Part shown: positions 6,640 to 57,988 of the stretch, piece by piece
How positions within the stretch are numbered: position 1 is the first letter of the stretch
Layout: each line of letters begins with the position of its first letter
From: a virus
Strand: one strand, 5' to 3'
Virus record (IMG/VR): IMGVR_UViG_3300049846_001393
Coordinates: 1 to 64,000 of that record
Length of the DNA: 64,000 bases
Notes under the pieces: generated by a model
The model's input: only the letters and a program-made list of their open reading frames with translations
Told to the model about the DNA's origin: nothing
The model's database searches: none
Made by a program: the position numbers and the translations under genes

Positions 6640-6640
6640 T

Positions 6641-27200: not shown

Positions 27201-30200
27201 TATTCGCATCCTCAGCAAATGCCTTAATCTTATCAAGGTTAGCATTCTGCTTATCAACACCAGACTGGATAAGAGAATAAGCGACCATAACACCAGTTAA
27301 AGCTAGTGTTGTAAAACCGCCAACAGCAGCAGAAGCTTTCTGTGCAGGAGTCTTCAATCCAGCCTTATTAAGCTTTTCAACATTTTGACTACGCTGATTA
27401 AATCCAGCACCTAAAGCAGATAGCCTCCCCTGACCAGCAGCACGGGCATCAATATATGCCTGTCTTCCTGTTCTACCAAAATTACCACCAAGCATACCTG
27501 GTGCTGTCATAGTGCCAGTTCTAGGGTTAATGCCATACTGTCCAGCACCAGAAGTTCCACTCATAAAATTGAATAAAGCAGCCATTTGGGCACGCTGGCT
27601 AGCATTAACTGTGCCCATAACAGCTTGACGCTGCAAAGCATTTGCTCGCATATTTGCAAACAAACCATTATTGCCTCTTAACCCACCAAGAGCGCCAGCA
27701 ATACCACCACCAGGACCAAATCTAGTTGCTGCCTTAAGAAGTTTGAATGCTGCAACTGCAGCAAGAATCTTTACAGGTAAACCATCAAAAGCACCAAGAA
27801 CTGGCGAGACAGCCTTAAAAATTAATCCAAATCCCTTAGCTATAATACCAAGAAGACCAGCAACTTCCTTAAGAAGATCTTCCAAGCCAGACTCAAGAAG
27901 TGTCAAGAACAGTTTTCTTACCTGCTCTCTCAAACGCTGGAAGGTATTGGTAAGAGTAGCCTGAACTTTCTTAAATCGCTCTTCAAGTTTACCAGCACCA
28001 TTTTCGGCAGCATCAGTAAGACCCTTCAAAGCCTGAGGGTTGGAAAGGGCAGGAAGAATTGCAGCAGCCTCACGACGACCACCAAGAAGATTAACAATGA
28101 AATCTTTAGATTCCTTGTTTAGACTATTAAACGCCTCTCCAATTCCAAAAAGAATTCCTCTAGTATCAGATTTATTAATAGCGGTAATAAATTCTGGAGT
28201 TCCAAGTTTATCATTAGTTATCGCAATATCCAAAAGAGCTTGACGACTCTGATAAATAGCAGGAATAATACGACCAAACTGCTCAGCAAGAGCAGCGCCA
28301 CCACGACCAGAACGCTGCTGAGCAAGAGCGGCAAGGGCTGCGAACTCTTCAAGAGAGAAACCTGCTTCTGTAGCAACAGGAGCAATATCGCCAATGAAAG
28401 AAATTGTCTCCTTAGCAAGTACACCAGACTTTTGCTCAAGAGCAATAGCAACGTCACCAATTTTTTTGAACGAAGCTTCGAAAGCAATAGATGCAGCAGT
28501 AAGACCATCGGTAATTTCTGCAAGAGGAAGACCTGTAGACTGAGCAATCTTTGCAGCAGATTCAATCTGGGCATTTACCAGATCAGTACCACCCATACCC
28601 TCAATAGGTCCAACGGTACTAAATGCTCCAATCAACTGAACTGTAAGAAGAGCAAGTTCATCTGCAGCAAGACCAGTCTCAAGCGAGATATCCATAATCT
28701 GCTTCTTGAACTGCTGGGTAACTACTGCGGCATCCTCACCAAAGGTTGCTTGGATCTGGCTTTCAATTTTTGCCAAGTTGAACTGAAGCTGCTCAGCTTC
28801 TTTGATTGAATCTTTGATTCCACCAAGAGCACCGTAAAGAAGCATTGAAGGAACGGCATAACGAACAGTTGAAAGCAAACCAGAGCCAAAGAAGCCGGCA
28901 GCGCCACCAAGACCACGAACCCTAGAAACAACATCTCCACGCTGACCGCCGCCGCGGCGACCCATTCCACCTGGGACTACCCCACCGCCACCGCCACCGC
29001 CACCAGTACCGCCAGTGCCACCAGTGCCGCCAGAAAGAAGAGTAAGCTTTCTACTCTCAAGAACCTGCAATTCAGTCTGCAAACGGCTAAGCTCTACCTG
29101 TGCCTGTGGATCAACAGAAGTATCAATCTTAATAACTTCTGCATTAATAGCCTTAACACGCGATTCAAGATCGGCAATTTGCTTAGCTCTAAGTGCAGGA
29201 TCTTTTTCCTTACCAATCTTACCAAGAAGAGTCTGCTCAGCAACAATCTGAGATCTATAATTCTTTAGCTTTGAAGAAGCTTTAACAGCATTTGGATTAC
29301 TAAGTTCAAAGTTTAACTGCTTTTGAGCTCTAGTAACTTTTTGTATAGCAAGATTGAGGGCATCATATTCAACTTTTTGCTGCTTGGTTAAATTATTGTA
29401 ACCACCAGCACCCTTAATAAGATTGTCTCTCTCTTTCTTAAGAGATCTCAGACTTTTTTCTGACTGACCCAGCGCCTGCCCACTTATAGTTGGATCGCTA
29501 ATAGAAAGAGAAGCAGCATCTTTAACATTAGAACCAATAAGTTTAGCTCTCTTAGTCAAATCTTTAATATCTTTAGAAGTATTATCTTTTGGAGTATCTA
29601 AAGCAGTAGAAAGATTCTGTGGAGCATTTTTACCAATCTTTTGTAGATCAGCAATCTTCTTTTCAAGAACAGCAGCTTCTTTACTAAGATTCTGAAGGAC
29701 GGCAGTAGCAGAAGCATCATTAATCGTAATGGTTACATCATCTTTAATATCAGTTTGTAACTCATCAAGCTGCTTTTTAATATTCTTAAGAGCATTTAAA
29801 GCATCCTTAGGATCAAGCTTTACAGCAGCCTGAACACCCTTCTGAACCTGAGCCAACTGTCGCTTACGTTCGGCAGCAATAGCAGCCTCATCACCTGGAA
29901 CCAAAACACCAGCAACAGCACCCCTAGCGGCAGTAAGACGTTCTTTCCTAGTAGAAACACGCGAAGGGTCAACGCCCTTTAATGCTGCCGCCTCAAGAGC
30001 AGCACGCCTTCTAGCAGCACGAGTCTGAGCAGCAACAACATCTGCCTCAGCAAGACGAGGGCCATAAAGAGCCTGAGCAGCAGCACCGGTAGCAGCCTGT
30101 CCTTCTGTCTTAAGAACTTGGCCCTCTGCGGCGCCAGCGACAAATGAAGGATTAGCATTCTGCAGCGCAGCAACCTGATTAGCAAGTCTCTGATTATATA

Positions 30201-32691
30201 AAGCAGCCTGAGCTCTTGCTTCAGCAATCTCTTGAACTAGTCCAAGATTTTCTCTTTCAAAACCAGCAGCAGCTTGAATAAGAGCATCAACATACTGTCT
30301 ATATGCCTCTGCAATACCAGAACTTTCAACAAGATCACTGGGATCTCCAGACTGAACGTTCCCTCCAATATCTTGCATATCAGCAGCTCTTTGAGCAGCA
30401 GCTTGAGCTGCAGCCTCATATGCGCTTACATTTTCTTCATCACCAAATGGATCATTGCCAGCAGCACCGCCACGGCCACCGCCACCGCCCCCGCCAGTAC
30501 CACCAATTCCGCCAGAAAGTTTTTTGGCTGTACTACCCTTGCTAGTTAATGAAGAAACAAGTCCACGTTCTGCTTTAGCAAACTCTGCATAAATACCTTT
30601 AAGTAGCTGAGTCTGCCTATCAAGAGCCTTAGACTTATCATTTAAAGCTTTAACAAGATTTTTTTCTGCACTAGAAATATTTGTTGCAGTAGAACCAGTG
30701 GCTTTAGCACCAGTAGCTTTAGCGCCGGTAGTTTTAGCTCCGGTAGGGCCAGTAGTTTTTGGACCAGTAGCGGCAGGACCAGTAGCTTTAGGTCCAGTAG
30801 CAGCAGCACCAGTAGTTTTAGCTCCGGTAGCAGCAGGACCAGTGGGACCAGTAGCTTTAGGTCCAGTAGCAGCAGGTGTCTGACCTTCAGCACCAGTAAT
30901 TTGTGCAACAGTTTCACGAAGAGCAGCCGCAAGGCTATCAAGCTCTTCGTTTAACTCATCAACACTTAAACCGCTTAACTCTTTTAATATTTCAGAAGTT
31001 ACATCGCCAGCCATAGTAGCTGGAGATCCCTTGCCAAGCGGTATACCTGTTCTTAGCGCTACTGATTCAGCAATTGTCTCATAAAGATCTTTAGTACCAT
31101 ACTGACTAGTTCCAGCAGCTAACTTTGATCTTTGTTTTGCAGCATCTTTATAAATAGGATTATCTCTTCCAAGATATTCCTGCAAAGTTTGAGCCTTAAG
31201 TCTACCCTTAGGTGTTAAACTGAACGGTCCTGTCTTTAAACCAGTAACCTTCATTGCTTCTGCATTTTGTCTCTGAATAAATTCTTTCAGAGACTTCATA
31301 TCACTAAGACCTGGATTTAGTTTCTTTACATCAGCAAGAGAAAGTGTTCCAGATTTTGTTCCGCTAGCAGCAACTCTTAAAGCTTCAGCATTTCTTGAAA
31401 GACCAATTACAGACTTAGCCTCTCTCCCACCAGTAATCCCATCTCCAAATATACCTGCACCACGCTCTACAAGCTTTCCTCTAACACGCGATCCAATACT
31501 TGGATCAACAGATCCCGCCCTAAAATCACCGATATGACCAAGCTCATGGAGCATTACCTGCATAGCGTCAGTTGGATTAAGGTCTTTTCTTAGGGCAACA
31601 CCCATATTTTTTGGACCAGCATAACCCGAAGCCTTACCAGGCTGGACATTATAGTCCAAAACTTTTCTTGAAGTCTTAGAAAATGTTTGGAGTTGTTCAG
31701 GCGCCAACGTTGGGAACTGCATCAAGGTCTTTTTCAAACCTCTATTAACTACTTTTGCAGTTCTAGGATCTTCAAATTCAGAAAGGAATTTAGGAGTTAA
31801 AAGCTTTTGAAACGTAGGCTCTAACTTTCTTCTAACCTTGCCTCTTTCAATTTGAGCCTGAAGTCGCTCATCTAAAGAAAGACCCTTAGCACGGGCAGTA
31901 GATCTAGTAACAGGTCTACCATATCTATCAAGTCTAGCGTTTTGCTTAGTTACACCACGATATGGCTCGGTATACTGTTTACCACCACCAATTTCAGCCT
32001 CTGCACTAACTAAATCTTCTGGGACAAAATCTTCAGTAGATCTCTTTGCCCTTGTTTTTCTTCTTGTAGTAGAAGGTGCAATATCTCTTGCAGCAGAAGC
32101 TCTACGCTCAGCAGCAGAAGGGGCGCGTGGAGTAGGTGCAGCCGTAGCCTCAGCCTGACGAACAAGAGTCTTGGCTGGAACAGTTTTAGCCTGCGCGGCC
32201 TTAGAACCAACTACAGCCTGAACTTCGCGATTATAAAGATCGCGAACAGCAGTACCAATTCTAGTCGGTTTAATCTTGCTTAACTGCCTATCAAAGTCAG
32301 CAAAAAAAGTATCAAAAGATTTAGTAAATTTTCTAACTACAGCAGTCTGCTGAGACTTAGGAAGAAGCTCAAATCCCTTAAAAGAAGACTTGAAAGAATC
32401 AACAGAAGCAGCTCTAATCTTGCTCAAAGAGGGAGTGTCAAGACCAAGTGCTTTAGCCTGCTGCATCTGCACCTGAGCATTAGCGGCAGCGATCCTGGCA
32501 GAACCAGTAGCAGCAGCGCTACGGTCAGCAGTATTAACTCTACTTAAATTTTGCTGAACAGGTGGAGCAGAGGCAACCTGCTTAGAAGAACCAGAGGCGA
32601 CACGCTTTGACTCAGCATCAAGCCTTCTGATGCTTTTCATAACCTCGCTATCATCCACACCAAGCTTGATATTAAAGTTAAAATCAGCCAT
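24202..32691 (-). CDS. Tape measure protein
   Basis: A 2,829-residue protein that sets tail length and is injected with DNA. It has long Ala/Gln/Lys/Glu coiled-coil regions. A collagen-like Thr/Gly/Ala stretch (ATGPKATGPTGP type) occupies ~600-667 and Gly-rich linkers lie near ~735 and ~1235. A typical tape-measure core (FNLAKIESQIQATFGED, SLETGLAADELALL, GFSLEEFAALAALAQQRSG) is followed by hydrophobic segments (FGLIFKAVSPVLGAF, TTLALTGVMVAYSLI). Residues ~380-386 read LHELGH, a HExxH zinc-protease signature. At about 1.5 angstrom per residue the tail would be roughly 0.4 micrometres (inference). Start ATG 32691 has GGTGGCAGG upstream. Confidence 0.93.
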   Translation of the reverse strand: MADFNFNIKLGVDDSEVMKSIRRLDAESKRVASGSSKQVASAPPVQQNLSRVNTADRSAAATGSARIAAANAQVQMQQAKALGLDTPSLSKIRAASVDSFKSSFKGFELLPKSQQTAVVRKFTKSFDTFFADFDRQLSKIKPTRIGTAVRDLYNREVQAVVGSKAAQAKTVPAKTLVRQAEATAAPTPRAPSAAERRASAARDIAPSTTRRKTRAKRSTEDFVPEDLVSAEAEIGGGKQYTEPYRGVTKQNARLDRYGRPVTRSTARAKGLSLDERLQAQIERGKVRRKLEPTFQKLLTPKFLSEFEDPRTAKVVNRGLKKTLMQFPTLAPEQLQTFSKTSRKVLDYNVQPGKASGYAGPKNMGVALRKDLNPTDAMQVMLHELGHIGDFRAGSVDPSIGSRVRGKLVERGAGIFGDGITGGREAKSVIGLSRNAEALRVAASGTKSGTLSLADVKKLNPGLSDMKSLKEFIQRQNAEAMKVTGLKTGPFSLTPKGRLKAQTLQEYLGRDNPIYKDAAKQRSKLAAGTSQYGTKDLYETIAESVALRTGIPLGKGSPATMAGDVTSEILKELSGLSVDELNEELDSLAAALRETVAQITGAEGQTPAATGPKATGPTGPAATGAKTTGAAATGPKATGPAATGPKTTGPTGAKTTGAKATGAKATGSTATNISSAEKNLVKALNDKSKALDRQTQLLKGIYAEFAKAERGLVSSLTSKGSTAKKLSGGIGGTGGGGGGGRGGAAGNDPFGDEENVSAYEAAAQAAAQRAADMQDIGGNVQSGDPSDLVESSGIAEAYRQYVDALIQAAAGFERENLGLVQEIAEARAQAALYNQRLANQVAALQNANPSFVAGAAEGQVLKTEGQAATGAAAQALYGPRLAEADVVAAQTRAARRRAALEAAALKGVDPSRVSTRKERLTAARGAVAGVLVPGDEAAIAAERKRQLAQVQKGVQAAVKLDPKDALNALKNIKKQLDELQTDIKDDVTITINDASATAVLQNLSKEAAVLEKKIADLQKIGKNAPQNLSTALDTPKDNTSKDIKDLTKRAKLIGSNVKDAASLSISDPTISGQALGQSEKSLRSLKKERDNLIKGAGGYNNLTKQQKVEYDALNLAIQKVTRAQKQLNFELSNPNAVKASSKLKNYRSQIVAEQTLLGKIGKEKDPALRAKQIADLESRVKAINAEVIKIDTSVDPQAQVELSRLQTELQVLESRKLTLLSGGTGGTGGTGGGGGGGGVVPGGMGRRGGGQRGDVVSRVRGLGGAAGFFGSGLLSTVRYAVPSMLLYGALGGIKDSIKEAEQLQFNLAKIESQIQATFGEDAAVVTQQFKKQIMDISLETGLAADELALLTVQLIGAFSTVGPIEGMGGTDLVNAQIESAAKIAQSTGLPLAEITDGLTAASIAFEASFKKIGDVAIALEQKSGVLAKETISFIGDIAPVATEAGFSLEEFAALAALAQQRSGRGGAALAEQFGRIIPAIYQSRQALLDIAITNDKLGTPEFITAINKSDTRGILFGIGEAFNSLNKESKDFIVNLLGGRREAAAILPALSNPQALKGLTDAAENGAGKLEERFKKVQATLTNTFQRLREQVRKLFLTLLESGLEDLLKEVAGLLGIIAKGFGLIFKAVSPVLGAFDGLPVKILAAVAAFKLLKAATRFGPGGGIAGALGGLRGNNGLFANMRANALQRQAVMGTVNASQRAQMAALFNFMSGTSGAGQYGINPRTGTMTAPGMLGGNFGRTGRQAYIDARAAGQGRLSALGAGFNQRSQNVEKLNKAGLKTPAQKASAAVGGFTTLALTGVMVAYSLIQSGVDKQNANLDKIKAFAEDANTSIADLEAKARDLREVNAGISIGARLSGFFTGARYESEAEYAQALAFAKSAFDENEQRILDILANQQSAVNFFLERISGLSGANALPNVIADEGITAGGIDINPAGNVGVGPAQQKAEEKSKQAADKARIKTGTNKGKFNVEAYIRNAYAGEGRLGDSRAFQFDQDLADAGDALRAAALERLTKISEALGFNLNNLDGDIASALGSANPTKALEEIVQDKDRKYTDAEQKQAKEVLDKIIELGENDPRVKALLEANGLLDDAAAASLKSLEQLQKDLDLGRISPESYLAGLNELRASILAKINDPKVTGNKKLLYEQLFNIDKTINGFVNEQAQKALTATLDIINLTSDPTTIAGIMQKAAAIQTAINSGLTGEDLRKAALELVQTQKEMAIAMIQNAATAEEAAEIAGRPIKIPIETRVAAIKGQLGTLVGNWSTFTKGWETAFGETADDFITFITTALSNGSLSIDQVKAMMEKRKKDLETQRALFMEMTGAKANDPTVQAYDQAISGANAIINSINTTGKLPGDTGNEVNDKKAQFSAYQQRAQAATNLNKAKANKDSVAKAMMDAQQAEKDYQKAVADGLDAQTLDELDAKRREAKQAVIDAAKAVADAVRGIAKAQAAANKDSVAQAVLDLDQANKDYAAAVAANDKEGAANAVAAQIAARAALRDNINNRAKTFAQLLKALGSQDSLDQAQYDVNIARMNMANAVGPEERMQAWMELIAAERAQREAFKRRREAMFDLAKAQTEDPVQDAQYDLTLAQQLLAEAKTNDERIAAQRQLIDAQRAMTNAMNDVRNSQFSLRQAELAAIGDDIGAAQVAAAAAREQLAQAINAGKGAAEINNLRAGVISAEKAARDAIFQGKLDEYKYLLDTDQITKTEYANYLEGLKSTLIPGTKQFRDLEVTIKNLKDDISGNLQANLPTSLMLPTLYEVRRLNQSGQFGNVSGGANGPSVGYQDNRNIQVQVVVNNGMSEGQVVDSLAKAMNVGTSGLESRRY

Positions 32692-36610: not shown

Positions 36611-36887
36611 ATTGTCCACCCAAAGACCATGCCTCTGCCTCAGCAATCAAATGCTGCGGCTCTTGATGTATAACATTAGCAGCATCTTGCAGCGGAATAA
36701 CATTAAGAACAACTAAAAGAGTTGCTAAAGCACCAGTTGAATCTAATGGTGGATATGGATTAACAATAGTTTCTCTAGAAATTTCAATACCATTACTATA
36801 ATTAATAACAACTACAGATCCATCAGAATTTTCTATAGTTTGTTCTATAAGAACACCATCTAAAGTAGTAATTTCAGTTAAAATCAT
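36603..36887 (-). CDS. Small hypothetical protein after collagen-like fibre
   Basis: About 94 residues. The N-terminus is beta-rich and Thr/Ile/Asp-rich (ILTEITTLDGVLIEQTI), the middle is Pro-rich, and residues ~60-80 are a hydrophobic helix (STGALATLLVVLNVI). Start ATG 36887 overlaps the fibre-gene stop as ATGA. It could be an assembly chaperone or attachment protein for the fibre encoded just upstream; this rests on coupling alone. Confidence 0.55.
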   Translation of the reverse strand: MILTEITTLDGVLIEQTIENSDGSVVVINYSNGIEISRETIVNPYPPLDSTGALATLLVVLNVIPLQDAANVIHQEPQHLIAEAEAWSLGGQYG

Positions 36888-39013
36888 GGGGTACTCACTC
36901 TCATCCAAACATGAAATACGTTCCCTGTAATAGTACGACCTAAAGAAACTGTGGGATTATCAGCAAATGCTCCAGAAATTGAAGAACTTGTAAAAAATGT
37001 AAACATATTATTACTTGCAGCAGGAGTAGTTTCTCCAGCAATTTGTGCGGCAACAGAGCAAGCAGCAAATGTTGGATTAGCTCCAGCAGTATCAATATTT
37101 TGAGTAGAAATAGCTGCCCAATACCAACCGGGTGAAAGAGTTACTTCTGCAAATGTTTTAGTTAAAACACCAGTAGCATTTATAGAAGCTGTACCAGCAT
37201 CTATTTTTACAGTTCCGGGTCTACCTGAATTATCATTATAAATACCAATGCGTACAACTGCTGAAGCTCCTGCATTTAAAGCAGTGCAATAAACAGAAAG
37301 TGCTGTAGTACCAACCTGTTTGCCAATATAGAATGGAACATATCTAACAGCATTATTAGAGTTTGCAGCACTTGATCCAGTAGACTGTGTAGTATATCCA
37401 TTTCCATGCTGATGAGATAACAGCATATAGTCATTAGTAGCTAATGGAAGTTCGTTAACGCCTGGACCAGTTGCGCCAGTGCTTCCCGTAGAACCAGCGG
37501 GACCAGTCGCACCTGTGGCTCCTACAGCGCCATTGGTTCCATTGGTTCCTGCTGGACCAGCAGGCCCGGTAGCGCCAGTAGCACCAGCACCAGTAGCCCC
37601 TTGAGGACCAGTAGCGCCAGCAGGTCCAGTGGGTCCAGAAGGGCCAAGTTGGGTATACATGACTTGCGTAGCAGTTAAAATAACGCTTGGAATAGCTGGA
37701 GAAGGAGCTGATGCTGCTGAATACTCAAGAAACAAGTCAGTATGTGTTGTATTCCAAAAAAGTTCAATATAGTCACTAGCGGTTAAATTTAAAACAAAAT
37801 TTACAGTTCCAATATTATGCCCATCAATATTTCCATGATTTTCGTTAACACTCCACTTACTATCACTATCATTTATATTAGTTCCATTTTTCTTTAACCA
37901 AACATTAACATCTTTAATTTGATTATTAGAATTTGCAAACTGAATAGAGAAAGTAATGCTATAAACACCAGAATTAGAAAAAGTAATTTTACTATTATCT
38001 ACAACAGAAACGCCATTATTGGATAAATCAGAATTGTTATAAGTAATTGGATATTCCGTGTTTGCGGAAACAGCGGTTTGATCTTGCGTAGACCAAAAAG
38101 AACCCCAATATCCTAAAGAGCCACCAGCACCCGCAGGACCAGTCGCACCCGTTGCGCCAGCACCAGTTGCGCCCTGTGGTCCAGTAGAACCCGTTGCACC
38201 CACAGGACCAGTCCAACCATCACTGCCGGGTAGCCCCTGCGGACCTGTAGCGCCCGTAACACCAGTCGGTCCAGTAAAGCCAATATCACCACTTGCAGAC
38301 AAAAGAGTCCAAAATGTTCCCTCTACCGGAGTATCGCCAGTATTCCCACCATTAGCATTTATACGATACCAAGTTTGTCCACCATAAGTAGCAACATCAC
38401 CAACCGCATACGATGCCCCTACGTTATAGGCACCAGTAAAATTCCAAAGAGCATTCGCACCTGTTGGACCAGTAGGACCTTCGGGACCAGTAGGACCGGT
38501 AGCACCTGTAGCGCCTGCCGAACCAGCAGATCCCGTAGCCCCAACAGCGCCAGTAAAACCCTGAACACCCTGAATTCCCTGTGGCCCCGTTGCTCCAGAA
38601 GCACCGACCAAACCTTCATTTCCTTGGATTCCCTGCGGACCAGTTGCGCCAGTAGAGCCCACACCACCAGTCAAACCAGTCGAACCAGTTGCACCAGTAA
38701 AACCTTGCGAGCCAACGGCGCCAGAAGCGCCTGTAGCGCCAGAATCACCAATAGGGCCAGTAGGCCCCTGTGGACCAGTAGAACCTGTTGCGCCAGCACC
38801 AGTTGCACCAGCGGGGCCAGTAGAACCAGTAGCACCCACACTACCAGTTGGACCAGCAGGCCCACTTGGACCAGTAGAACCCTGAACACCCTGTGGACCC
38901 TGAACGCCATCAACAACAATAGAAGGAACTGCCTCTTCTATCACTTCGATATAAGTGGCATCCTCAGAATCAACTATGATTATTGTTTCATCTTCCTCTT
39001 GAAAGGATGCCAT
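36884..39013 (-). CDS. Collagen-like fibre with C1q-like and carbohydrate-binding-like domains
   Basis: A 709-residue fibre. N-terminal ~37 residues are acidic (possible attachment). Collagen-like Gly-X-Y repeats (GATGPTGPQG types, rich in Thr and Pro) run from ~38 to ~186. A short domain at ~188-247 (W.FTGAYNVGASYAVGDVATYGGQTWYR...NTGDTP..FW..L) resembles chitin/cellulose-binding ChiC-type modules. A second collagen block occupies ~248-298. A C1q/TNF-like beta domain lies at ~300-450, a third collagen block at ~458-521, and a beta-rich C-terminal head at ~525-709. GAGG precedes the ATG. It lies among head-tail connector genes, so it may be a head or neck fibre rather than a tail fibre. Confidence 0.82.
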   Translation of the reverse strand: MASFQEEDETIIIVDSEDATYIEVIEEAVPSIVVDGVQGPQGVQGSTGPSGPAGPTGSVGATGSTGPAGATGAGATGSTGPQGPTGPIGDSGATGASGAVGSQGFTGATGSTGLTGGVGSTGATGPQGIQGNEGLVGASGATGPQGIQGVQGFTGAVGATGSAGSAGATGATGPTGPEGPTGPTGANALWNFTGAYNVGASYAVGDVATYGGQTWYRINANGGNTGDTPVEGTFWTLLSASGDIGFTGPTGVTGATGPQGLPGSDGWTGPVGATGSTGPQGATGAGATGATGPAGAGGSLGYWGSFWSTQDQTAVSANTEYPITYNNSDLSNNGVSVVDNSKITFSNSGVYSITFSIQFANSNNQIKDVNVWLKKNGTNINDSDSKWSVNENHGNIDGHNIGTVNFVLNLTASDYIELFWNTTHTDLFLEYSAASAPSPAIPSVILTATQVMYTQLGPSGPTGPAGATGPQGATGAGATGATGPAGPAGTNGTNGAVGATGATGPAGSTGSTGATGPGVNELPLATNDYMLLSHQHGNGYTTQSTGSSAANSNNAVRYVPFYIGKQVGTTALSVYCTALNAGASAVVRIGIYNDNSGRPGTVKIDAGTASINATGVLTKTFAEVTLSPGWYWAAISTQNIDTAGANPTFAACSVAAQIAGETTPAASNNMFTFFTSSSISGAFADNPTVSLGRTITGNVFHVWMRVSTP
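37450..38930 (-). repeat. Collagen-like Gly-X-Y coding repeats
   Basis: Three blocks of nine-base periodic DNA (about 38460-38930, 38110-38290 and 37450-37650) encode Gly-X-Y triplets rich in Thr, Pro, Ala and Ser. The period is a codon triplet, not a spacer-repeat pattern. Such DNA is prone to slippage, so repeat number may vary between isolates. Confidence 0.85.
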
Positions 39014-50068: not shown

Positions 50069-51040
50069 CTAAATCATATCATTCATGACCTGATCATAAA
50101 CCCATGAATAAGTCTTCTCAAGGCCGGCCTTCAATGACTCACTCGGCTTCCACCCTAAAACCTCTTCAATCAAAGTGTTATCACTATTTCTACCTCGAAC
50201 ACCTTGAGGAGCTTCCAAATTGTAGACCCTCTGAAGATTGACGCCACCAATCTCCTCAACAATCGAAACAAGCTGATTAATTGAAACAAGTTCGCTGCTT
50301 CCAAGATTTAAAGGATCGTGATAAGAGCGGCTCATCATTCTTGATATACCATCAAGACATTCATCAACATAAAGGAAAGATCTGGTCTGATTGCCATCTC
50401 CCCAAATTTCAATAATTTTATCACCAGTAATTGCAGCAACTGCAACCTTTCGACAAATTGCTGCTGGAGCCTTTTCTCTCCCACCCTTGTAAGTGCCATA
50501 TGGACCAAAGATATTATGGAATCTAGCAATAACTGTTTCTAGGCCAGTCTCTAACCTATAAAACATAGCTATCTCTTCACCAAACAACTTCTCCATCCCA
50601 TAGCCAGGCTCTGGATCTGCTGGCCAAGCATCTGTTTCTTTGAGAGAAACTTGCTCAATTTGCTGAATCTTGTCATTGTAAACACACGCAGATGAAGCAT
50701 AGAAAAACTGCGAAACCTCGTTCAGTTCTGATGCTCTCAGCATATTGATGGTCACAAGAGCTGACTGCATACAGTCAACCCTATGAGTTGCAATGAAACC
50801 CATACCACCCATATCTGCTGCTAGATTATAGACAACATCTGCACCAATCGTCTTATCGCAACAATTATCAAAATCTCTAAGATCGCAATCAGGTCTATTC
50901 TTAGCGTTACGATGAACCTGATACCACTCTTCAAGTGGCTTAATATCTACAGCGGTAACAGAATTACCTTTTGCCAAAAGTTTTTTAACAAGATGACCAC
51001 CGATGAAACCACCAGCACCAGCAACAACTACATTATTCAT
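50069..51040 (-). CDS. GDP-mannose 3,5-epimerase-like enzyme
   Basis: A 323-residue extended short-chain dehydrogenase. Residues 8-14 (GAGGFIG) bind NAD. NLAADMGGMGFI, FFYASSACVY (Ser116-Cys119), SLKETDAWPADP, YGMEK (Tyr147, Lys151), RFHNIFGPYGTYKGGREKAPAA (Lys190), GDGNQTRSF and VRGRNSDNT closely follow plant GDP-mannose 3,5-epimerase as I know it. They keep the Cys/Lys pair that epimerises C3 and C5. The expected products are GDP-L-galactose and GDP-L-gulose from host GDP-mannose. General UDP-glucose 4-epimerases lack the SSAC and GGREKAP blocks. It is the last gene of the glycan operon. Confidence 0.85.
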   Translation of the reverse strand: MNNVVVAGAGGFIGGHLVKKLLAKGNSVTAVDIKPLEEWYQVHRNAKNRPDCDLRDFDNCCDKTIGADVVYNLAADMGGMGFIATHRVDCMQSALVTINMLRASELNEVSQFFYASSACVYNDKIQQIEQVSLKETDAWPADPEPGYGMEKLFGEEIAMFYRLETGLETVIARFHNIFGPYGTYKGGREKAPAAICRKVAVAAITGDKIIEIWGDGNQTRSFLYVDECLDGISRMMSRSYHDPLNLGSSELVSINQLVSIVEEIGGVNLQRVYNLEAPQGVRGRNSDNTLIEEVLGWKPSESLKAGLEKTYSWVYDQVMNDMI

Positions 51041-51552
51041 GATTTACTCGCAATAAAAAGATCCATAGAACGATTAAGTTCAATATCAAAATTATATAAT
51101 CTTGACAAATTGTGAATATCTGCCATAGACGGATATCCCTCTTCTGAGCCAAACAGTCTTAAATCATCAACGATGACAATATGTGACTGATAAGACTTAA
51201 AAATAGTTATCAGTTCTCTTACTATAGGGGTTTCGGAAGGAGGCATAAGACCATCAGATCGATTCACATTATGTGCATCAAGAAACCATACAGCAGGCTC
51301 ATGGATATGAAACTCAAATAAATCAATCCAATCACTAGAATCACCATGAATTAATTTAATATTATTAGTGTTCCAAAATCTTTCAATACAAGAACGATAA
51401 AGATCTTCCATAAATTCAATAGAAATTACCTGCTTAAAATTTTGAGAAGCCCAAAAAGTTGTCTCACCAACAGCAGTCCCAGTCTCAACAAAAACATCTC
51501 TACCATCTTTGACAGATAATACTATATCATAAAATTCTTCTGGATTATTCAT
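51037..51552 (-). CDS. SAM-dependent methyltransferase-like protein
   Basis: A 171-residue Rossmann-like protein. FVETGTAVGETTFW is the glycine-rich SAM loop, ISIEFMEDLY the acidic end of strand 2, and IKLIHGDSSDWI and AVWFLDAHN follow as strands 4-5 (the last ending LDAH). This fits class I methyltransferases of the Methyltransf_24/TylF-like type. ATG overlaps neighbours on both sides (ATGA). Within the glycan island it would methylate a sugar or a glycosylated product; acceptor unknown. Confidence 0.65.
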   Translation of the reverse strand: MNNPEEFYDIVLSVKDGRDVFVETGTAVGETTFWASQNFKQVISIEFMEDLYRSCIERFWNTNNIKLIHGDSSDWIDLFEFHIHEPAVWFLDAHNVNRSDGLMPPSETPIVRELITIFKSYQSHIVIVDDLRLFGSEEGYPSMADIHNLSRLYNFDIELNRSMDLFIASKS

Positions 51553-52295
51553 AGCGGATCTTTCGCTTTCAAAGTTTTCAAAATGTAAGAATGAGTTCTA
51601 TCAATCTCTGGAGATTGCTTTCTCCAATCTGAAACAGGGTTGACTGTGTTATATACATATAAAGGAATATCTATATATTTGTATCTTCCACCAGCAAGTT
51701 CAAGACAAGGAATCATTACAGCAGTATCACCAGCACACTTAAACCAAGAACCATCTGGCCAAGTAAAATCAGACTCATCTAAATTTTTGAAAAGCAAATA
51801 CTTAACTGTTCTAAGATGATTAAAAAGAATCCCATGTTTATAAGCAGACTTTCTATAGGAGTTCGCCAAAACAACTTCTCTTGGATAAGGAGCTGGTTGA
51901 GGGCAGGTTTTTGAATATGGCTCTGTTACATAATTTCCATAAGTCATCAAGTAATTACCAGAACTATAAACCGCTTCCAGCCTTTTTAGAACATTTCTAT
52001 TTATAAGCCAATCGTCACCATCAACCCAAACAATAACATCATCATCTTCGGGCTCTAGCTTTGAGATTGCTTCTACTTGAGAATATAAAGCCCCTTTATT
52101 ATTTTTATGAAGGATGCTTAACCAGCCATGCTCTTCACAAAAAGACCTTATAAAAGGCCACTGGTTTCTATCAGTAGAAGCATCATCAACAACACATACA
52201 TTATAATTCGTATATGACTGATCAGCGATAGAAGCCAGCGTCTTAGGAAGCCAATCCATAGAATTATAACTTGCTACAACTATCTGAAACTTCAT
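51549..52295 (-). CDS. GT2-family glycosyltransferase
   Basis: A 248-residue GT-A enzyme. FQIVVASYNSMDWLPKTLASIADQSY is the classic GT2 N-terminus. VVDDASTD binds the nucleotide sugar, and VIVWVDGDDWL contains the DxD metal motif. The C-terminal half has SWFKCAGDTAVMIPCLELAG, an acceptor-side D. Coupled ATGA junctions on both sides. It adds one sugar in an unknown glycan. Confidence 0.85.
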   Translation of the reverse strand: MKFQIVVASYNSMDWLPKTLASIADQSYTNYNVCVVDDASTDRNQWPFIRSFCEEHGWLSILHKNNKGALYSQVEAISKLEPEDDDVIVWVDGDDWLINRNVLKRLEAVYSSGNYLMTYGNYVTEPYSKTCPQPAPYPREVVLANSYRKSAYKHGILFNHLRTVKYLLFKNLDESDFTWPDGSWFKCAGDTAVMIPCLELAGGRYKYIDIPLYVYNTVNPVSDWRKQSPEIDRTHSYILKTLKAKDPL

Positions 52296-52936
52296 TAGTC
52301 AATTCTCTTTTTTCCATGAAAAATTCCGCCATAAATATGATTAGGATATTTATGTGGAATAATTGTAACTTCAAAAAAGGCTCCAAGATATCTAACCCAA
52401 TCACCCCATCTTGGATCTGGACCATGAAACTCTCCAGTAATTCTTTCAACTTTCATCAAAGACTCTGGAGAAGCATTCAAAATAATATCTACCTCAGCGC
52501 CTTCAACATCAATCTTTAGAATATCGATAACTGAAAAAGATTCCGTAAGTTCATCAAAAGAAATTGACTCTACAGCAATAGAGTTTTCCCCTGACTGCAC
52601 AGCAGTTCCACCGCAATCAGCAACGATACTCACTCCATTAGAGTCAGACCAAACTGCCTTATTTATCAAGTTGATATTAGAAATATGTCCACAGTTTTTT
52701 TCTAAGACAGAAAAGTTGTCTGGCTCAGGCTCAACAGAAGTAACAGAACAGTTAGGAAACTTTCTAACAATTCTCGAAGAGAACGCACCAATATTTGCAC
52801 CAATATCTAAAACAATAGAAACATCATTCATAGTTTCAATTTCATAAACATCATGCAAAAAGATTTCATTTAAAACAAATTCATCTGAAGTTTCTGGCCT
52901 ATAATAAAGATCGCTTCTCTCATCAAGTTCTAACAT
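52295..52936 (-). CDS. FkbM-family methyltransferase
   Basis: A ~213-residue methyltransferase. IVLDIGANIGAFSSRI is motif I, SVTSVEPEPDNF ends strand 2, and VIDILKIDVEGAEVDIIL is the FkbM signature (KIDVEGAE). Start ATG 52936 has GGAG nine bases upstream; the frame is open to 52957. FkbM enzymes methylate hydroxyls on sugars and polyketides. A second FkbM gene overlaps just upstream, so two different positions or sugars may be methylated. Confidence 0.85.
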   Translation of the reverse strand: MLELDERSDLYYRPETSDEFVLNEIFLHDVYEIETMNDVSIVLDIGANIGAFSSRIVRKFPNCSVTSVEPEPDNFSVLEKNCGHISNINLINKAVWSDSNGVSIVADCGGTAVQSGENSIAVESISFDELTESFSVIDILKIDVEGAEVDIILNASPESLMKVERITGEFHGPDPRWGDWVRYLGAFFEVTIIPHKYPNHIYGGIFHGKKRID

Positions 52937-53522
52937 AAAAAGCATCTCCCCATCCAAACGGAGTCATTTCTGTAAGAACACGATCAAAATCTTTTAAGAA
53001 GTCATCCAGATCAGAAATCAAACAACAACCCTCATAGAGTTCATTCTCATTAACTTCTGTGTAAATGTAATCAACATTATCAAGCAAAGAACCCATACCC
53101 TTTAGTGCAAGAAGTTCTGCCCCCTGAATATCTAGGTTCAGAAAGTTGAACTCTTTTTCGATTCCAAGGTTTTCAATCTTATACATAGTTACAGTTCTAG
53201 AAGAAACATATTCAACTTCTGGGTGAACCTCAGCGTGAGTTCCCAATTCAAGAATAGAACTTGACTGTCCATTATTGGCTTCGTGGAATGTAACCTCTTT
53301 ACCAGTCTCGTCCCCGACGACAGCACAAATAACAGTATGAGAAGTTGGTACGATTTTTCTGATCTTGTCAGCCCTTCTTGGATCTGCCTCAACCCAAACC
53401 ACATCACTGACCTTATTGTGCTGGTAAATATCTACTTCTTCAGCAAGGTGACCTCCAACATGGAGAACGCCAGTGACTGGAGTATCAAAGAATCTTGACA
53501 AATCCTGCCAATCAATCAACAT
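52923..53522 (-). CDS. FkbM-family methyltransferase
   Basis: A 199-residue methyltransferase. GVLHVGGHLAEEVDIY replaces the usual DVGAN loop, DVVWVEADPRRADKI is strand 2, and FNFLNLDIQGAELLALKG is the FkbM (LDIQGAE) signature. ATG overlaps the GT11 stop by 11 bp. It differs enough from the neighbouring FkbM protein to be an independent acquisition rather than a fresh duplication. O-methylation of a sugar is the likely role. Confidence 0.85.
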   Translation of the reverse strand: MLIDWQDLSRFFDTPVTGVLHVGGHLAEEVDIYQHNKVSDVVWVEADPRRADKIRKIVPTSHTVICAVVGDETGKEVTFHEANNGQSSSILELGTHAEVHPEVEYVSSRTVTMYKIENLGIEKEFNFLNLDIQGAELLALKGMGSLLDNVDYIYTEVNENELYEGCCLISDLDDFLKDFDRVLTEMTPFGWGDAFYVRT

Positions 53523-54318
53523 TTTTTTCAGTCCAATCTGAAGGAATCATCCTTCTCCAAGGGATATGCCTAACTGCAGGATCTGTGCCAAACCAGCGGG
53601 ATGGGTAGAAACCTTTTTTGCTTTCAGAAAGAAATGCTCCCCACCAAGAAAAAGTTGAGTTAGCAATTATGTGCTGCTTACACATAGCCATGCTGAATAG
53701 ATCAAGATAGTCAGAGGGTTCGCCCAATCTATCCGCAACCTCAACTGGTCTTGGAGTTCCTTTAAAGAAAATAACTTTACCAGAATCAACTAGATTCGAA
53801 GTAAACTCATCTGTCTTATAATTAAATATTACTTGCTTTATTGAATCAGAAAAAACATAAAATACTGTTTCTGGATCGGACGAAAGAGCATCCTGCATTG
53901 CAGATGAATAATATTGCATTGTTGGAATTGGAAAATGGTTTGGATGATTTAGATAATCTCCAAGACGATGATGAATAGAACAACCGTGAGACTTCATTGA
54001 CTCAGCGTTGTCTCCAACATATTCAAGCGTATCATTGAGTGCCCTATCCGAAGGTTGGAAAATTGACCAGATGTAAGAATTAATCTGCTGCCAATAGTGT
54101 AGTTCTTGGTAATACTCAAATCCACCATCAATAGAATCATCTGAAGCAGTTGCAAAAAGAGAATCTGGAACTGAGAAGAACGGTCGATATTCCCAACTTG
54201 GAACAACAACACCATTACCACCGTTGCGATCAGCCTCTCCCAATGTCCAAGCAATCTGCCACAACTGATTACCAAGTCTTCCAGCTAAACCAAGATTTTT
54301 GAAACTAAATTCTCTCAT
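53512..54318 (-). CDS. GT11 alpha-1,2-fucosyltransferase-like enzyme
   Basis: A ~268-residue enzyme of the GT11 (alpha-1,2-fucosyltransferase) type. GLAGRLGNQLWQIA is the family's GRxGNQLFQ start, SIHHRLGDYL the HxRxGDY donor-binding block, and IIANSTFSWWGAFLS the NSSFSWWGAWL block. GT11 enzymes normally use GDP-L-fucose. GDP-L-galactose differs only at C6, so the epimerase in the same operon could supply the donor. Start ATG 54318 or 54330, both overlapping the upstream gene. No fucose-synthesis genes (gmd/fcl) are seen here. Confidence 0.85.
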   Translation of the reverse strand: MREFSFKNLGLAGRLGNQLWQIAWTLGEADRNGGNGVVVPSWEYRPFFSVPDSLFATASDDSIDGGFEYYQELHYWQQINSYIWSIFQPSDRALNDTLEYVGDNAESMKSHGCSIHHRLGDYLNHPNHFPIPTMQYYSSAMQDALSSDPETVFYVFSDSIKQVIFNYKTDEFTSNLVDSGKVIFFKGTPRPVEVADRLGEPSDYLDLFSMAMCKQHIIANSTFSWWGAFLSESKKGFYPSRWFGTDPAVRHIPWRRMIPSDWTEKNVD

Positions 54319-54967
54319 CAGACCAACCATATCTTAATGCATAATCTTTATTAAAAAGATTCCTATTTCTTATCTCATCTGCAGTATTAAAATCTGAATC
54401 ACCTCTGGGATGCCATAAGTGGCATACGTGCGATCCACATCTCAAATGCTTACCAATTGTATTATCTAGTTTTAATCTGAAGGCTACGTCTTCCCAGCCC
54501 CAACCCCTAAATCTTTCATCATAAAAACCAGCATCATTATACATATCTCTAGTTAATACTAACGCACCAGCCCAAGAAAGTATTTTAAAATCAAACTCTA
54601 AATTGTCTTCATCTTCACAAATTGACAAATCTTTTGATATAAATATTTTCTCAGTAAAGTCTTTTGTTAAATTATAATAATTCTGGTATGGTATTACCCA
54701 AGTGTTTTTATCTTTTACAAGCTGTATAGCATCGAGAATTGCGTCCATGCTCACCCAAGTATCAGCATCAAGAATAACAAGAAACTCTCCTTTGGCCTGA
54801 AGGAAGGCGTTGTTGCGGGCTCTTGATCTGTTCATGGACTGCTCATAGTCGTAACCAACGACTAACTCGCAATCATTAGATGATTTAACATAATCTTTGA
54901 TTAGGTTAAAAGACTGCAGTCGATATTTATCTTTTGTGTCATTCCATGGAATTATAAAAGAAATCAT
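54305..54967 (-). CDS. GT-A glycosyltransferase with GWGWED motif
   Basis: A 220-residue glycosyltransferase. ISFIIPWNDTKDKYRLQSF starts the GT-A fold, RARNNAFLQAKGEFLVILDADTWV holds the DxD metal motif, and FDERFRGWGWEDVAFRLKL is the galactosyltransferase-type (Glyco_transf_7C-like) acceptor/catalytic block with its ED. It belongs to the polypeptide GalNAc/galactosyltransferase-like group of inverting or retaining enzymes. The sugar is not predictable from sequence. Confidence 0.8.
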   Translation of the reverse strand: MISFIIPWNDTKDKYRLQSFNLIKDYVKSSNDCELVVGYDYEQSMNRSRARNNAFLQAKGEFLVILDADTWVSMDAILDAIQLVKDKNTWVIPYQNYYNLTKDFTEKIFISKDLSICEDEDNLEFDFKILSWAGALVLTRDMYNDAGFYDERFRGWGWEDVAFRLKLDNTIGKHLRCGSHVCHLWHPRGDSDFNTADEIRNRNLFNKDYALRYGWSDERI

Positions 54968-54970
54968 GTT

Positions 54971-55597
54971 TTAATCCAAATAAACGTTTTTTATAGTTCT
55001 TGAAAAAGGCTTATATTCTGAAACTATCTGTGAATATACCTTTGAATGTAAAGAATGATCTGTATTTCTACTACCTTCACGAACACCAATGCAATAAATA
55101 GCTTTTTCAACTACTTTAATATTTGAATTAGCATTACATATAAGATTAAGAAAAAGTTCCCAATCTTCTAAAATTGGATACTCTTTGAAACCACCGACTT
55201 TTATAAAGTCATATCTAGAAACCATCGATCCAATAACACAACTATTAGAAGTGAAAATGTCTCTGTTCGGAATAACAGATGGAGCTGGATCAGCTTCTCC
55301 AGATTCGTAGAAACCCATAGTCATTGGCTTAAAAATTATTGGACCATGAGAAACGTCTAATGCGTTATGCATTGCAATCAAATAATCTTCATGCAAAAAA
55401 TCATCAGCATCTAAGAAAACAATAAAGTCAGCATTAGACATTTTTGCTCCACGATTCCTTGCCTTAGCTAAAGAATCTGAGTGGACAGAAATGACATTAT
55501 TAAGACCTTCAAGAGTTGACATCGAATGACAAAGATCTGAGTTCTTGTCCTCCCAGTCTTTCGAACCAAATGTTCCAACAACAATATCAATCAACAT
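54971..55597 (-). CDS. GT2-family glycosyltransferase
   Basis: A 208-residue GT-A enzyme. LIDIVVGTFGSKDW begins the fold, SLAKARNRGAKMSNADFIVFLDADDFL gives the RN..A and DxD motifs, and FKEYPILEDWELFLNLI holds the acidic catalytic ED. It is short for GT2, so it is probably a soluble single-domain enzyme without a membrane anchor. Starts by overlapping the next gene's stop; 3 bp before the following gene. Confidence 0.82.
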   Translation of the reverse strand: MLIDIVVGTFGSKDWEDKNSDLCHSMSTLEGLNNVISVHSDSLAKARNRGAKMSNADFIVFLDADDFLHEDYLIAMHNALDVSHGPIIFKPMTMGFYESGEADPAPSVIPNRDIFTSNSCVIGSMVSRYDFIKVGGFKEYPILEDWELFLNLICNANSNIKVVEKAIYCIGVREGSRNTDHSLHSKVYSQIVSEYKPFSRTIKNVYLD

Positions 55598-56297
55598 TTA
55601 AACCAACAACATTCGGATACTTTTCATACTTGCCATCAGAAAGTATGGATTTTATATGTGAAATGCTATGACCAGGTCTAGAAATATATCTGTTATATTT
55701 CTCTAAACGATCAGACTCTTTAGCATACCCAAAATGCAACATCTTAATATCATACTGATTTGCTGGATTGCCCCTAGCATAAAGAGGCTCAGAACCGCAG
55801 CCCATAGAAGCAGCCGGCCAAGAAGCGTTTCCCTGGAACCTAAAAAATCTAGGAGAACAGATGCTATCCCAATAAGGATCTACCCTTACTGATAGCGAGT
55901 CGCCATCGACACCAAAAACCTCAAGAAAATGAATCTTCACAGAATCACTACCCAGTTCAGTGCACTTAAGAAGTGAATCGTGCAGCGGGAGACCAGAGTA
56001 TAAAAACTCGTCTGCATCAAATGCGAGAACCCAGTCCTCTTCAGAAGGACTCAGCAAATCTTCAAAGTATGTCCATGCCTGCGATCTAAACATGCTTTCG
56101 TTTTCAAGAAAGGATGGAGATGAATCAGGTCTGACCGCAACGGTTGCAAAGTCAGAAGCAATATTCACAGAATCATCAGTAGATCTATCATCAAAAATAA
56201 AAATTTCATCAAGAAAAGAAGAAGACCATTCAAGACATTCTTTCAGATATCTATCCGACTCATTCTTCATAACCATGAGTCCATAAATTTTAGTCAT
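55587..56297 (-). CDS. GT2-like glycosyltransferase
   Basis: A 236-residue enzyme of the Glyco_tranf_2_4 type. IYGLMVMKNESDRYLKECLEW is the characteristic start, IFIFDDRSTDDS the nucleotide-binding part, and EDWVLAFDADEFLY the DxD. A downstream SPRFFRF and HFGY are typical of this subgroup. It overlaps genes on both sides. Confidence 0.82.
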   Translation of the reverse strand: MTKIYGLMVMKNESDRYLKECLEWSSSFLDEIFIFDDRSTDDSVNIASDFATVAVRPDSSPSFLENESMFRSQAWTYFEDLLSPSEEDWVLAFDADEFLYSGLPLHDSLLKCTELGSDSVKIHFLEVFGVDGDSLSVRVDPYWDSICSPRFFRFQGNASWPAASMGCGSEPLYARGNPANQYDIKMLHFGYAKESDRLEKYNRYISRPGHSISHIKSILSDGKYEKYPNVVGLNVD

Positions 56298-57063
56298 GAT
56301 CTATACCATGGGCTTCACAAAATTCAACAAAAATCTTCTTTGCCTCACCCATCCTTGAATCAACTTCACCGCCAACAGGGGACGACTTATGCCATTCATG
56401 AATCATCTCAGCATTACCAAGGTACCAAACCTCTTTACCATGAGCCTGTGCGTGATAGGCGCAACCGGTTTCCTCATAGTAATGCTGCGTTGGAAGAAAG
56501 GCCCCAATTACATCTGGAAACATTGATGCATAAATGCTACAATTTGTTAATTCAGACCAAAGATCTCTTTTGATAAAAAATGCTGACCCAGAAACTGTAA
56601 CAGCCTTACGATCAAAGCGTAGCTCTTGGAGTCTTGGTGATCTCCAACCATTATGCTGTGGCTTTTCTAGCGTTCCAAAGATACCACCATGAGTTGCTCT
56701 AAAAGTTGAGTCGTACTGCAATGGGCCAACAATACCAACATCTGGATTTGAGTCCAAAAAATCTACACAGTAGTCAACACATTCATTATCAACAAATCTT
56801 GTGTCAGAATTAAAGAAGGCTAGAACATCTGCATCAGAGTTAAATCCAGCATAGTTGCAAGCCAAAGCATATCCAAGATTCCAGTCTGATCTAACCGACC
56901 AAGCATCTGACGGAATTTTTAAGTCATCAAAACCATCTTCAGAATCTACATCAATAATAGTTAGATGGCTTTCTGTTTTTGGTTTAAACTGCTCATAAGA
57001 ATCAATGAAAGCCTGAAGTAGATCATAAGTTCTATAATTTATGACAGAAATTTCTACTTTCAA
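56290..57063 (-). CDS. GT2 glycosyltransferase (rhamnosyltransferase-like)
   Basis: A ~257-residue GT-A enzyme. VEISVINYRTYDLLQAFIDSYEQ is the N-terminus, WNLGYALACNYAGFNSDADVLAFFNSDTRF has the N.G...A.N and DxD-type (NSD) motifs of rhamnosyltransferase-like GT2s, and VSGSAFFIKRDLWSEL and YYEETGCAYHAQ form the acceptor part. Start TTG 57063 has AAGG eight bases upstream; the frame is open to a GTG at 57072. Confidence 0.82.
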   Translation of the reverse strand: MKVEISVINYRTYDLLQAFIDSYEQFKPKTESHLTIIDVDSEDGFDDLKIPSDAWSVRSDWNLGYALACNYAGFNSDADVLAFFNSDTRFVDNECVDYCVDFLDSNPDVGIVGPLQYDSTFRATHGGIFGTLEKPQHNGWRSPRLQELRFDRKAVTVSGSAFFIKRDLWSELTNCSIYASMFPDVIGAFLPTQHYYEETGCAYHAQAHGKEVWYLGNAEMIHEWHKSSPVGGEVDSRMGEAKKIFVEFCEAHGIDHD

Positions 57064-57767
57064 AATCCACACCTTTTATCAATCACAGTAATCATATTTT
57101 TACTCATAACATGCTTATTGCTAACTTTTCCGTCCCAAATGAGTTTTCCACCAGCGGCCTTAACGTTTGCGGACCATCCAAGATCTTCACCGTTCTTGTG
57201 CCAAGAATAGTCAATATTATAAGCAAATGGTTTCATCAATTTTGCAGCCATAATAATATCAACAGTTGCGATATCGTCAGTATCTCTTCTATAAAATCTT
57301 ACCATGTCGCCATCTGACCAATACCCCATGCTTGGATGAACCCTTGTTGTTTCTGACATATAGCACTTCATTCCAACAGCACAAGCATCGGTATGCACAC
57401 TTAAAGCAGACAATGCAGATGTGATTGCAGTTTCAGCCAAGAGGATATCTGAATCTAGACTCAAGAAAAGATCTGGAGCATACTCACGAACACCAGCAAG
57501 AAGTTCGTTTCTTAGATATGTCATATGAGAATATCTAGAGTCATTCCATCTTCTTTTATCTTCTCTTAGGTCTTCATCAATAACTCTTACTATAGAGTTT
57601 TCTAGAGAAGATAGATCGTTTAGATCCTTCTTGTTCTTATTTCCTGCAACAAAAATAAACTGAAAATCGGAGATTCCAGCATTAAAGCAGGCAAGATTTA
57701 CATGATCAATCCACTTGTCAAGAATCCAACCCCTATCACTATATGGGCATCCAATTAAAAGTCTCAA
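57060..57767 (-). CDS. GT-A glycosyltransferase-like protein
   Basis: A ~235-residue glycosyltransferase. LRLLIGCPYSDRGWILDKWIDHV starts the fold, RNELLAGVREYAPDLFLSLDSDILLAE gives the RN and DxD motifs, and SWHKNGEDLGWSANVKAAGG is the acceptor/catalytic end. It resembles Anp1/GT2-like enzymes that act in chains. Start TTG 57767 overlaps the preceding stop (ATTTGA); the frame is open to TTG 57794. First glycosyltransferase of the island. Confidence 0.75.
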   Translation of the reverse strand: MRLLIGCPYSDRGWILDKWIDHVNLACFNAGISDFQFIFVAGNKNKKDLNDLSSLENSIVRVIDEDLREDKRRWNDSRYSHMTYLRNELLAGVREYAPDLFLSLDSDILLAETAITSALSALSVHTDACAVGMKCYMSETTRVHPSMGYWSDGDMVRFYRRDTDDIATVDIIMAAKLMKPFAYNIDYSWHKNGEDLGWSANVKAAGGKLIWDGKVSNKHVMSKNMITVIDKRCGF

Positions 57768-57988
57768 ATCTTTACCAATCTGTGAGAAGGGCAAACACGC
57801 TTTTCGTCCCCTGACTTTGGGACATATTCTTCACCGTATACAAGTGAAACTTTCTCAACCTGAACTGTCGCAAACTTTCCAGTAAAATTAACTATTTTAC
57901 CAAGATAAAAAGTTTGAGATGTATTAGTATTCGCAATTGCAATAACTTTAGAACCAAGATCAAGAATATTACCAAAAGCATCAAGCAT
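57764..57988 (-). CDS. Small KOW/SH3-like hypothetical protein
   Basis: A 74-residue beta-rich protein. The segment LGSKVIAIANTNTSQTFYLGKIVNFTGKFATVQVE has the G.KV......G.I....G..A.V pattern of small KOW/SH3-like barrels. No catalytic residues. It overlaps the RuvC-like gene and the first glycosyltransferase. Possibly a nucleic-acid-binding accessory to the resolvase. Confidence 0.5.
   Translation of the reverse strand: MLDAFGNILDLGSKVIAIANTNTSQTFYLGKIVNFTGKFATVQVEKVSLVYGEEYVPKSGDEKRVCPSHRLVKI

Follow-up and report, generated by a model that had tools for sequence, protein, structure and literature searches.

A phage GDP-mannose 3,5-epimerase and its link to fucosyltransferase-family genes: a candidate route to L-galactosylated glycans

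Could a phage make L-galactose and transfer it to a glycan? This question is raised by an 11-gene run on the minus strand of the IMG/VR virus record IMGVR_UViG_3300049846_001393, of which positions 1 to 64,000 were presented for analysis (this whole 64,000-nucleotide stretch is called the window). The source virus is a tailed phage and the whole record is 79,162 bp, possibly incomplete. A sequence-only reading had proposed that a GDP-mannose 3,5-epimerase (GME, also called GM35E) and a GT11 fucosyltransferase-like protein encoded in this run form a phage pathway for L-galactose. That proposal is partly upheld here: the epimerase is a GME by all sequence criteria tested, and across phages GME genes are linked to fucosyltransferase-family genes and are mostly an alternative to gmd and fcl. 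Use of the GME product by the GT11 protein is a step that we infer. The comparisons strengthen the interpretation but do not prove it.

The epimerase and the GT11 protein

The epimerase gene (50069..51040, minus strand) encodes 323 residues, and the SSAC, YGMEK and GGREKAP blocks from which its identity was originally proposed are indeed present and align with the Arabidopsis enzyme. When the protein was compared with the PDB using phmmer, the best solved relatives were all plant GMEs (five chains, 309-322 bits, including 8sg0 with E=5e-95 and 321.5 bits and the Arabidopsis structure 2c59 with 311.8 bits), and the runner-up family was an annotated UDP-glucose 4-epimerase with 91.9 bits. The residues published as diagnostic of GMEs make up a catalytic triad, a Cys-Lys acid/base pair, a conserved Asn, a diphosphate-binding Arg and an acidifying Arg (PMC8787198). 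Alignment to 2c59 found all eight of them kept: the triad S117, Y147 and K151 (S143, Y174 and K178 in Arabidopsis), the Cys acid C119 (C145) and the Lys base K190 (K217), the conserved N176 (N203), the diphosphate-binding R220 (R243) and the acidifying R284 (R306). The glycine motif of extended short-chain dehydrogenases/reductases is also present, as GAGGFIGG.

These results bear on the alternative that the enzyme acts on another nucleotide sugar, being a misassigned GDP-fucose synthase, GalE or 4,6-dehydratase. The NCBIfam matches included no GME model, and the nearest models are those for GDP-fucose synthase (NF047922, 108 bits with a cut-off of 500) and GalE (72 bits with a cut-off of 262), both far below their cut-offs. 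However, the Lys base and the acidifying Arg are present, whereas GDP-fucose synthase has His in place of the former and Lys in place of the latter (PMC8787198), and no other family scores above 92 bits. On these residues and scores the candidates GalE and Fcl were rejected, and a different substrate is very unlikely. The alignment keeps the Cys/Lys pair, and a quick tree placed the enzyme with plant and bacterial GMEs. In that tree the window GME, with its counterparts in two related loci (L003 and L004), falls in one group with 51 bacterial GMEs (support 99), to which no other phage GME belongs. This suggests, without proving it, an origin distinct from that of the main phage GMEs, as the bacterial sequences were selected for their similarity to an alignment headed by the window protein.

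The enzyme probably turns host GDP-mannose into GDP-L-galactose. It could instead mainly feed the transfer of L-gulose from GDP-L-gulose, as proposed for BlmG of bleomycin. GMEs yield both products (PMC6678494, PMC8787198), and no residue examined separates them. Characterized GMEs, however, give mainly GDP-L-galactose, which of the two resembles GDP-L-fucose more closely and whose use by fucosyltransferases has been reported, and the linkage to GT11 and GT10 genes described below points to an L-galacto-configured donor. A main role in L-gulose transfer is thus improbable.

The GT11 gene (53512..54330, minus strand, with an alternative in-frame ATG at 54318) was correctly placed four genes from the GME, the genes between them encoding a 171-aa protein, a GT2 enzyme and two FkbM proteins. 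Its 272-aa product, a divergent GT11 protein and candidate L-galactosyltransferase, scored 38.1 bits against PF01531 (curated cut-off 23.9), and the relative in L004 scored 54.2 bits. The sequence-only reading had credited this protein with the three hallmark blocks of the family, of which motif I was overstated. The usual GT11 motif I is HxRRxDY. The window protein has HHRLGDY, which keeps the His, the first Arg and the Asp, and the second Arg is replaced by Leu in this clade; some of the other phage GT11s likewise vary at this motif. A further motif reads NSTFSWWG. Because a sequence search of the PDB gave only a chance match to haemoglobin, a fold was predicted and used for a structure search. 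The AlphaFold model (predicted local distance difference test score 84) matched FUT8, POFUT2, POFUT1 and AtFUT1 in the PDB at E<=0.001 (best E 2e-5, template modelling score about 0.4-0.6 over the query), and as modelled the protein has the alpha2/alpha6/O-fucosyltransferase superfamily fold. GDP-L-galactose is reported to be a donor that fucosyltransferases can use, Arabidopsis FUT1 and FUT8 among them (PMC8787198), and the matches to these two count in favour of an L-galactose donor.

L003 (GME identity 82%) and L004 (73%) have the genes of the cluster in the same order, while a third locus, L002, is essentially the same virus (100%). Between the window and L003, the GME genes differ with a nonsynonymous rate (dN) of 0.13 and a synonymous rate (dS) of 1.8. 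For GME the ratio of dN to dS was about 0.07-0.17 and for GT11 about 0.16-0.31. The synonymous sites are nearly saturated, and by these estimates both genes are under purifying selection. Phage glycan islands turn over quickly, and the two genes might lie together by chance, or be decayed passengers, with no joint function. No positive point was found for this explanation; the synteny in both relatives, the low dN/dS of both genes and the linkage statistics given below all argue against it. A chance or decayed pair was rejected on synteny and selection, and we regard it as extremely unlikely.

Linkage to fucosyltransferase genes and alternation with gmd and fcl

About 37 INPHARED records, nearly all of cyanophages, hold GME-like matches (38-47% identity), and the cyanophage genes are mostly labelled 'UDP-glucose 4-epimerase', 'nucleotide-sugar epimerase' or similar. 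In Bellamy, S-PRM1, S-CAM9 and S-8S55 the final 4 bp of GME also belong to a GT11 gene; in SynMITS9220M01 the shared stretch is 14 bp. In S-SM2 the gene directly after GME is a GT10 fucosyltransferase (PF00852; L087:13034-13840), not a GT11, a swap of family that leaves the predicted donor type unchanged. GT10 genes directly after GME were seen in more IMG/VR loci, several of which are near-copies. Outside phages, GT11 starts 2 bp after GME in a Bacteroidetes metagenome-assembled genome.

This linkage was put in numbers using IMG/VR; totals from several of the viral contig scans are lower bounds and should be read as at least the number given. Of 75 viral loci with a cyanophage-type GME, 22 have a GT10 or GT11 gene directly downstream of it, compared with 0 of 73 control loci centred on a different cyanophage epimerase (Fisher p=5e-8); such a gene lies within 3 kb of the GME in 46 of 80. 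Within the control loci, GT10 or GT11 was found in 8 of the 10 that hold a GME and in none of the 70 that do not (p=1.6e-9). Among 36 loci with a downstream fucosyltransferase, made non-redundant at 90%, 17 had it at position +1, when 7.4 were expected from shuffled gene order (p about 2e-4). Counted with PF01531, GT11 is present in 13 of 50 GME-bearing viral records; an iterated local profile gave more loci, a subset of which was checked with Pfam.

Other genes next to GME were also seen. In S-PRM1 (L086:11959-14608) and S-CAM9 (L090:11959-14608), GME, GT11 and a third gene follow in series with 4-bp overlaps. The third is assigned to GT6, the ABO-type family, from Pfam for S-PRM1 and from the annotation for S-CAM9. 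This trio resembles a blood-group-like set, possibly with L-galactose where fucose would stand. In one viral and one actinobacterial locus (L073:11006-11776 and L142:8926-9741), a NodZ/FUT8-like (GT23-type) gene on the opposite strand ends 1-2 bp from the GME end, with Pfam matches below the curated cut-offs. Several prolyl-4-hydroxylase/2-oxoglutarate-Fe(II) oxygenase genes lie just upstream of GME in Sf-FS3 (L083:6728-12993) and S-SCSM1 (L088:1867-12957); hydroxyproline glycosylation of fibre proteins is one, speculative, acceptor option.

The source of the donor was approached through gmd and fcl. That the window lacks these genes had been noted, and this holds for the entire record, in which no Gmd match was found and no Fcl match except the GME itself (26%); the one PF01370 match and the one PF16363 match are both the GME. 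When 27 GT11-bearing phage records, including the window, were searched for true Gmd, Fcl and GME, 16 had GME only, 9 had gmd and/or fcl only, one (S-SCSM1) had both and one (B23) had neither. The nine are P-SSM2, ACG-2014f, S-CAM7, S-SRM01, DSL-LC02, AG-345-E02, AG-345-E08 (a 23-kb fragment with Fcl alone) and two uncultured large phages; of these two, one has Fcl without a true Gmd and the other has weaker matches to both. Eight of the 27 were first fetched through GME, although all eight also match GT11, and the Fisher p of 2e-5 for this alternation overstates the evidence for that reason and because phages share ancestry. Strict mutual exclusion was rejected because S-SCSM1 and four metagenomic loci hold both pathways. 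Two Gmd-like homologues, in Bellamy (MF351863.1:172327-173307) and SynMITS9220M01 (MT408532.1:157118-158107), have 32-35% identity to true Gmd and were not counted as Gmd; they lie near sugar kinase and nucleotidyltransferase genes and possibly belong to a different GDP-sugar pathway, for example for heptose.

In several IMG/VR fucose loci GT11 comes directly after fcl, and this gmd-fcl-GT11 layout parallels GME-GT11. On a GT11 tree the donor label is clustered, requiring 6 changes compared with 17.5 when shuffled, of which at least 3 are forced by well-supported branches, with near-copies adding to the clustering. This suggests that GT11 subclades are each tied to one donor, with several switches. 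Judged from their genes, many ocean phages carry a GME-GT11 pair, mostly where other phages have fucose-making genes, and the alternation fits replacement of the GDP-fucose pathway by GME as the donor source.

The same data can be set against an explanation in which the two genes serve different ends, the GME product being used by a GT2-type enzyme of the cluster and GT11 taking GDP-fucose from the host, so that their co-location reflects only a shared glycan island. The run contains five GT2-type genes, other genes separate GT11 from GME in the window, the host could make GDP-fucose, and S-SCSM1 carries gmd and fcl as well as GME (PMC9602691). However, GT11 and GT10 are over-represented directly after GME across phages, and of the 27 GT11-bearing phage records all but the two named above have either GME or gmd/fcl. 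We consider this explanation a serious but unlikely one.

The cluster and the proposed pathway

The run extends from 50069 to 57794 on the minus strand, and its neighbouring genes mostly overlap or nearly abut. By rising position, the GME is followed by a 171-aa protein (51037..51552; 4-bp overlap with GME) without a Pfam match, possibly of S-adenosylmethionine-dependent methyltransferase fold as judged by eye, and conserved in L003 (77%) and L004 (65%). It is followed by a GT2 glycosyltransferase (51549..52295; PF00535, E=3e-14), two FkbM-family methyltransferases (52295..52957; PF05050 E=5.8e-14, TIGR01444 89.5 bits; and 52923..53522; PF05050 E=3.3e-13, TIGR01444 44.7 bits) and GT11. Beyond GT11 stand four GT2-type glycosyltransferase-like genes (54305-54967, 54971-55597, 55587-56297 and 56290-57072; PF00535/PF10111/PF13704), the last with a Pfam score slightly under the curated cut-off. 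The run ends with a 244-aa protein (57060..57794) that had no match in Pfam, PHROGs or NCBIfam and is conserved in L003 (76%) and L004 (57%). A glycan-modification cluster is the best explanation of the run. Next to it lie a helix-turn-helix-like gene, recognized by eye, and the terminase and portal genes, identified by INPHARED matches and by eye, which share one common relative, Caudovirales GX15bay (about 41%).

In the pathway proposed here, GME would convert host GDP-D-mannose to GDP-L-galactose, plus some GDP-L-gulose, replacing the Gmd/Fcl pathway as donor supply. The GT11 protein would then transfer the L-sugar to an acceptor glycan that the GT2 enzymes encoded nearby shape or build and to which the FkbM proteins perhaps add O-methyl groups. 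The acceptor may be a host surface glycan or the virion, and the purpose may be a change of host surface, superinfection exclusion or virion decoration. A collagen-like tail fibre gene (window 36884-39013; PHROGs tail fibre/collagen-like minor tail) encodes a possible virion acceptor. The window also holds an additional glycosyltransferase outside the main cluster (14627-15793; phrog_3408, 251 bits) and a 2829-aa open reading frame at 24202-32691. Further genes of the record are a weak ThyX match (L082:7484-8284), a PIN-PhoH fusion (L082:11747-12997), a bacterial-type DNA polymerase III alpha (window 3220-6750) and RecA (window 1998-2975). DNA glycosylation as the purpose of the cluster has no support here, no search having been aimed at hypermodification enzymes beyond the ThyX-like gene noted.

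Several points weigh against transfer of the L-sugar by the GT11 protein. Some concern the window itself: its GT11 shares only about 30% identity with those of cyanophages, the second Arg of its motif I is missing, several GT2 enzymes of the cluster could use the new donor instead, the host might supply GDP-fucose, and the record may be a fragment. The four genes between GME and GT11 also mean that the argument from direct adjacency rests on cyanophages. Others concern the comparisons. Shared phylogeny links the 27 phage records, part of the contrast with the control loci may come from their having no glycan island, and linkage of GME to a fucosyltransferase is uncommon in bacteria (4 of 80 loci within 3 kb). 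Alternation was also weaker in 80 GT11-centred IMG/VR loci with flanks ending at 10 kb (GME 26, fucose 16, both 4, neither 34; p=0.05). Taken with these points, L-sugar transfer by GME and GT11 is the best explanation of the locus and a fairly probable one. A broader claim is put forward tentatively. In it, GME-GT11/GT10 would be a natural L-galactosylation cassette widespread among phages, the donor would have been repeatedly swapped from GDP-fucose to GDP-L-galactose, the GME-linked GT11 subclades would be dedicated L-galactosyltransferases, and L-galactose would replace fucose as the mark that many marine phages put on host surfaces or virions.

If the cassette does work in the proposed way, a specific rare sugar (L-galactose, perhaps L-gulose) is predicted on infected cells or virions, for cyanophage glycan gene islands whose sugar product is otherwise not evident from the sources found. 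The phage GT11s would offer glycan synthesis a natural source of candidate dedicated L-galactosyltransferases, and the common 'UDP-glucose 4-epimerase' annotation in cyanophages would be corrected, as the gene looks like GME.

Relation to known systems

The sequence-only reading knew of no such phage system, a statement that is too broad in one part. A 2022 description of S-SCSM1 lists gmd (ORF121), fcl (ORF122), GME (ORF123) and an alpha-1,2-fucosyltransferase (ORF126) as cell-wall genes (PMC9602691), and its GME is mentioned again in PMC10665884. Phage GMEs are also common, and the combination of activities exists in vitro (PMC8787198). By the titles and abstracts of the open-access literature, with few subscription journals covered, no other phage paper dealt with GDP-L-galactose in this sense. 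Within that literature the recurrent GME-fucosyltransferase pair and its alternation with gmd and fcl appear undescribed.

The GM35Es of plants and Methylacidiphilum fumariolicum (2c59, 8sg0; PMC6678494) share their family with the window enzyme by score and by the eight residues, but the window protein, a GME as judged by sequence, is phage-borne and lies in a glycan cluster. S-SCSM1 resembles the window in that only a few genes separate GME from GT11 in its glycan island. It differs in also carrying gmd and fcl, which makes the donor of its GT11 ambiguous, whereas neither gene has a close homologue in the window, S-CAM9, S-PRM1 or S-SM2. The cyanophage gmd-fcl-GT11 cassette (P-SSM2, ACG-2014f, S-CAM7, S-SRM01 and IMG/VR loci) shares the GT11 family with the window, but its donor comes from Gmd and Fcl, both absent here, where the donor would come from GME. 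The closest functional likeness is L-galactosylation in vitro with GM35E and promiscuous fucosyltransferases, together with the Arabidopsis mur1 mutant (PMC8787198). In both, a fucosyltransferase-family enzyme uses GME-made GDP-L-galactose, as proposed here, but these are in-vitro or mutant settings, whereas the window holds a candidate natural phage cassette.

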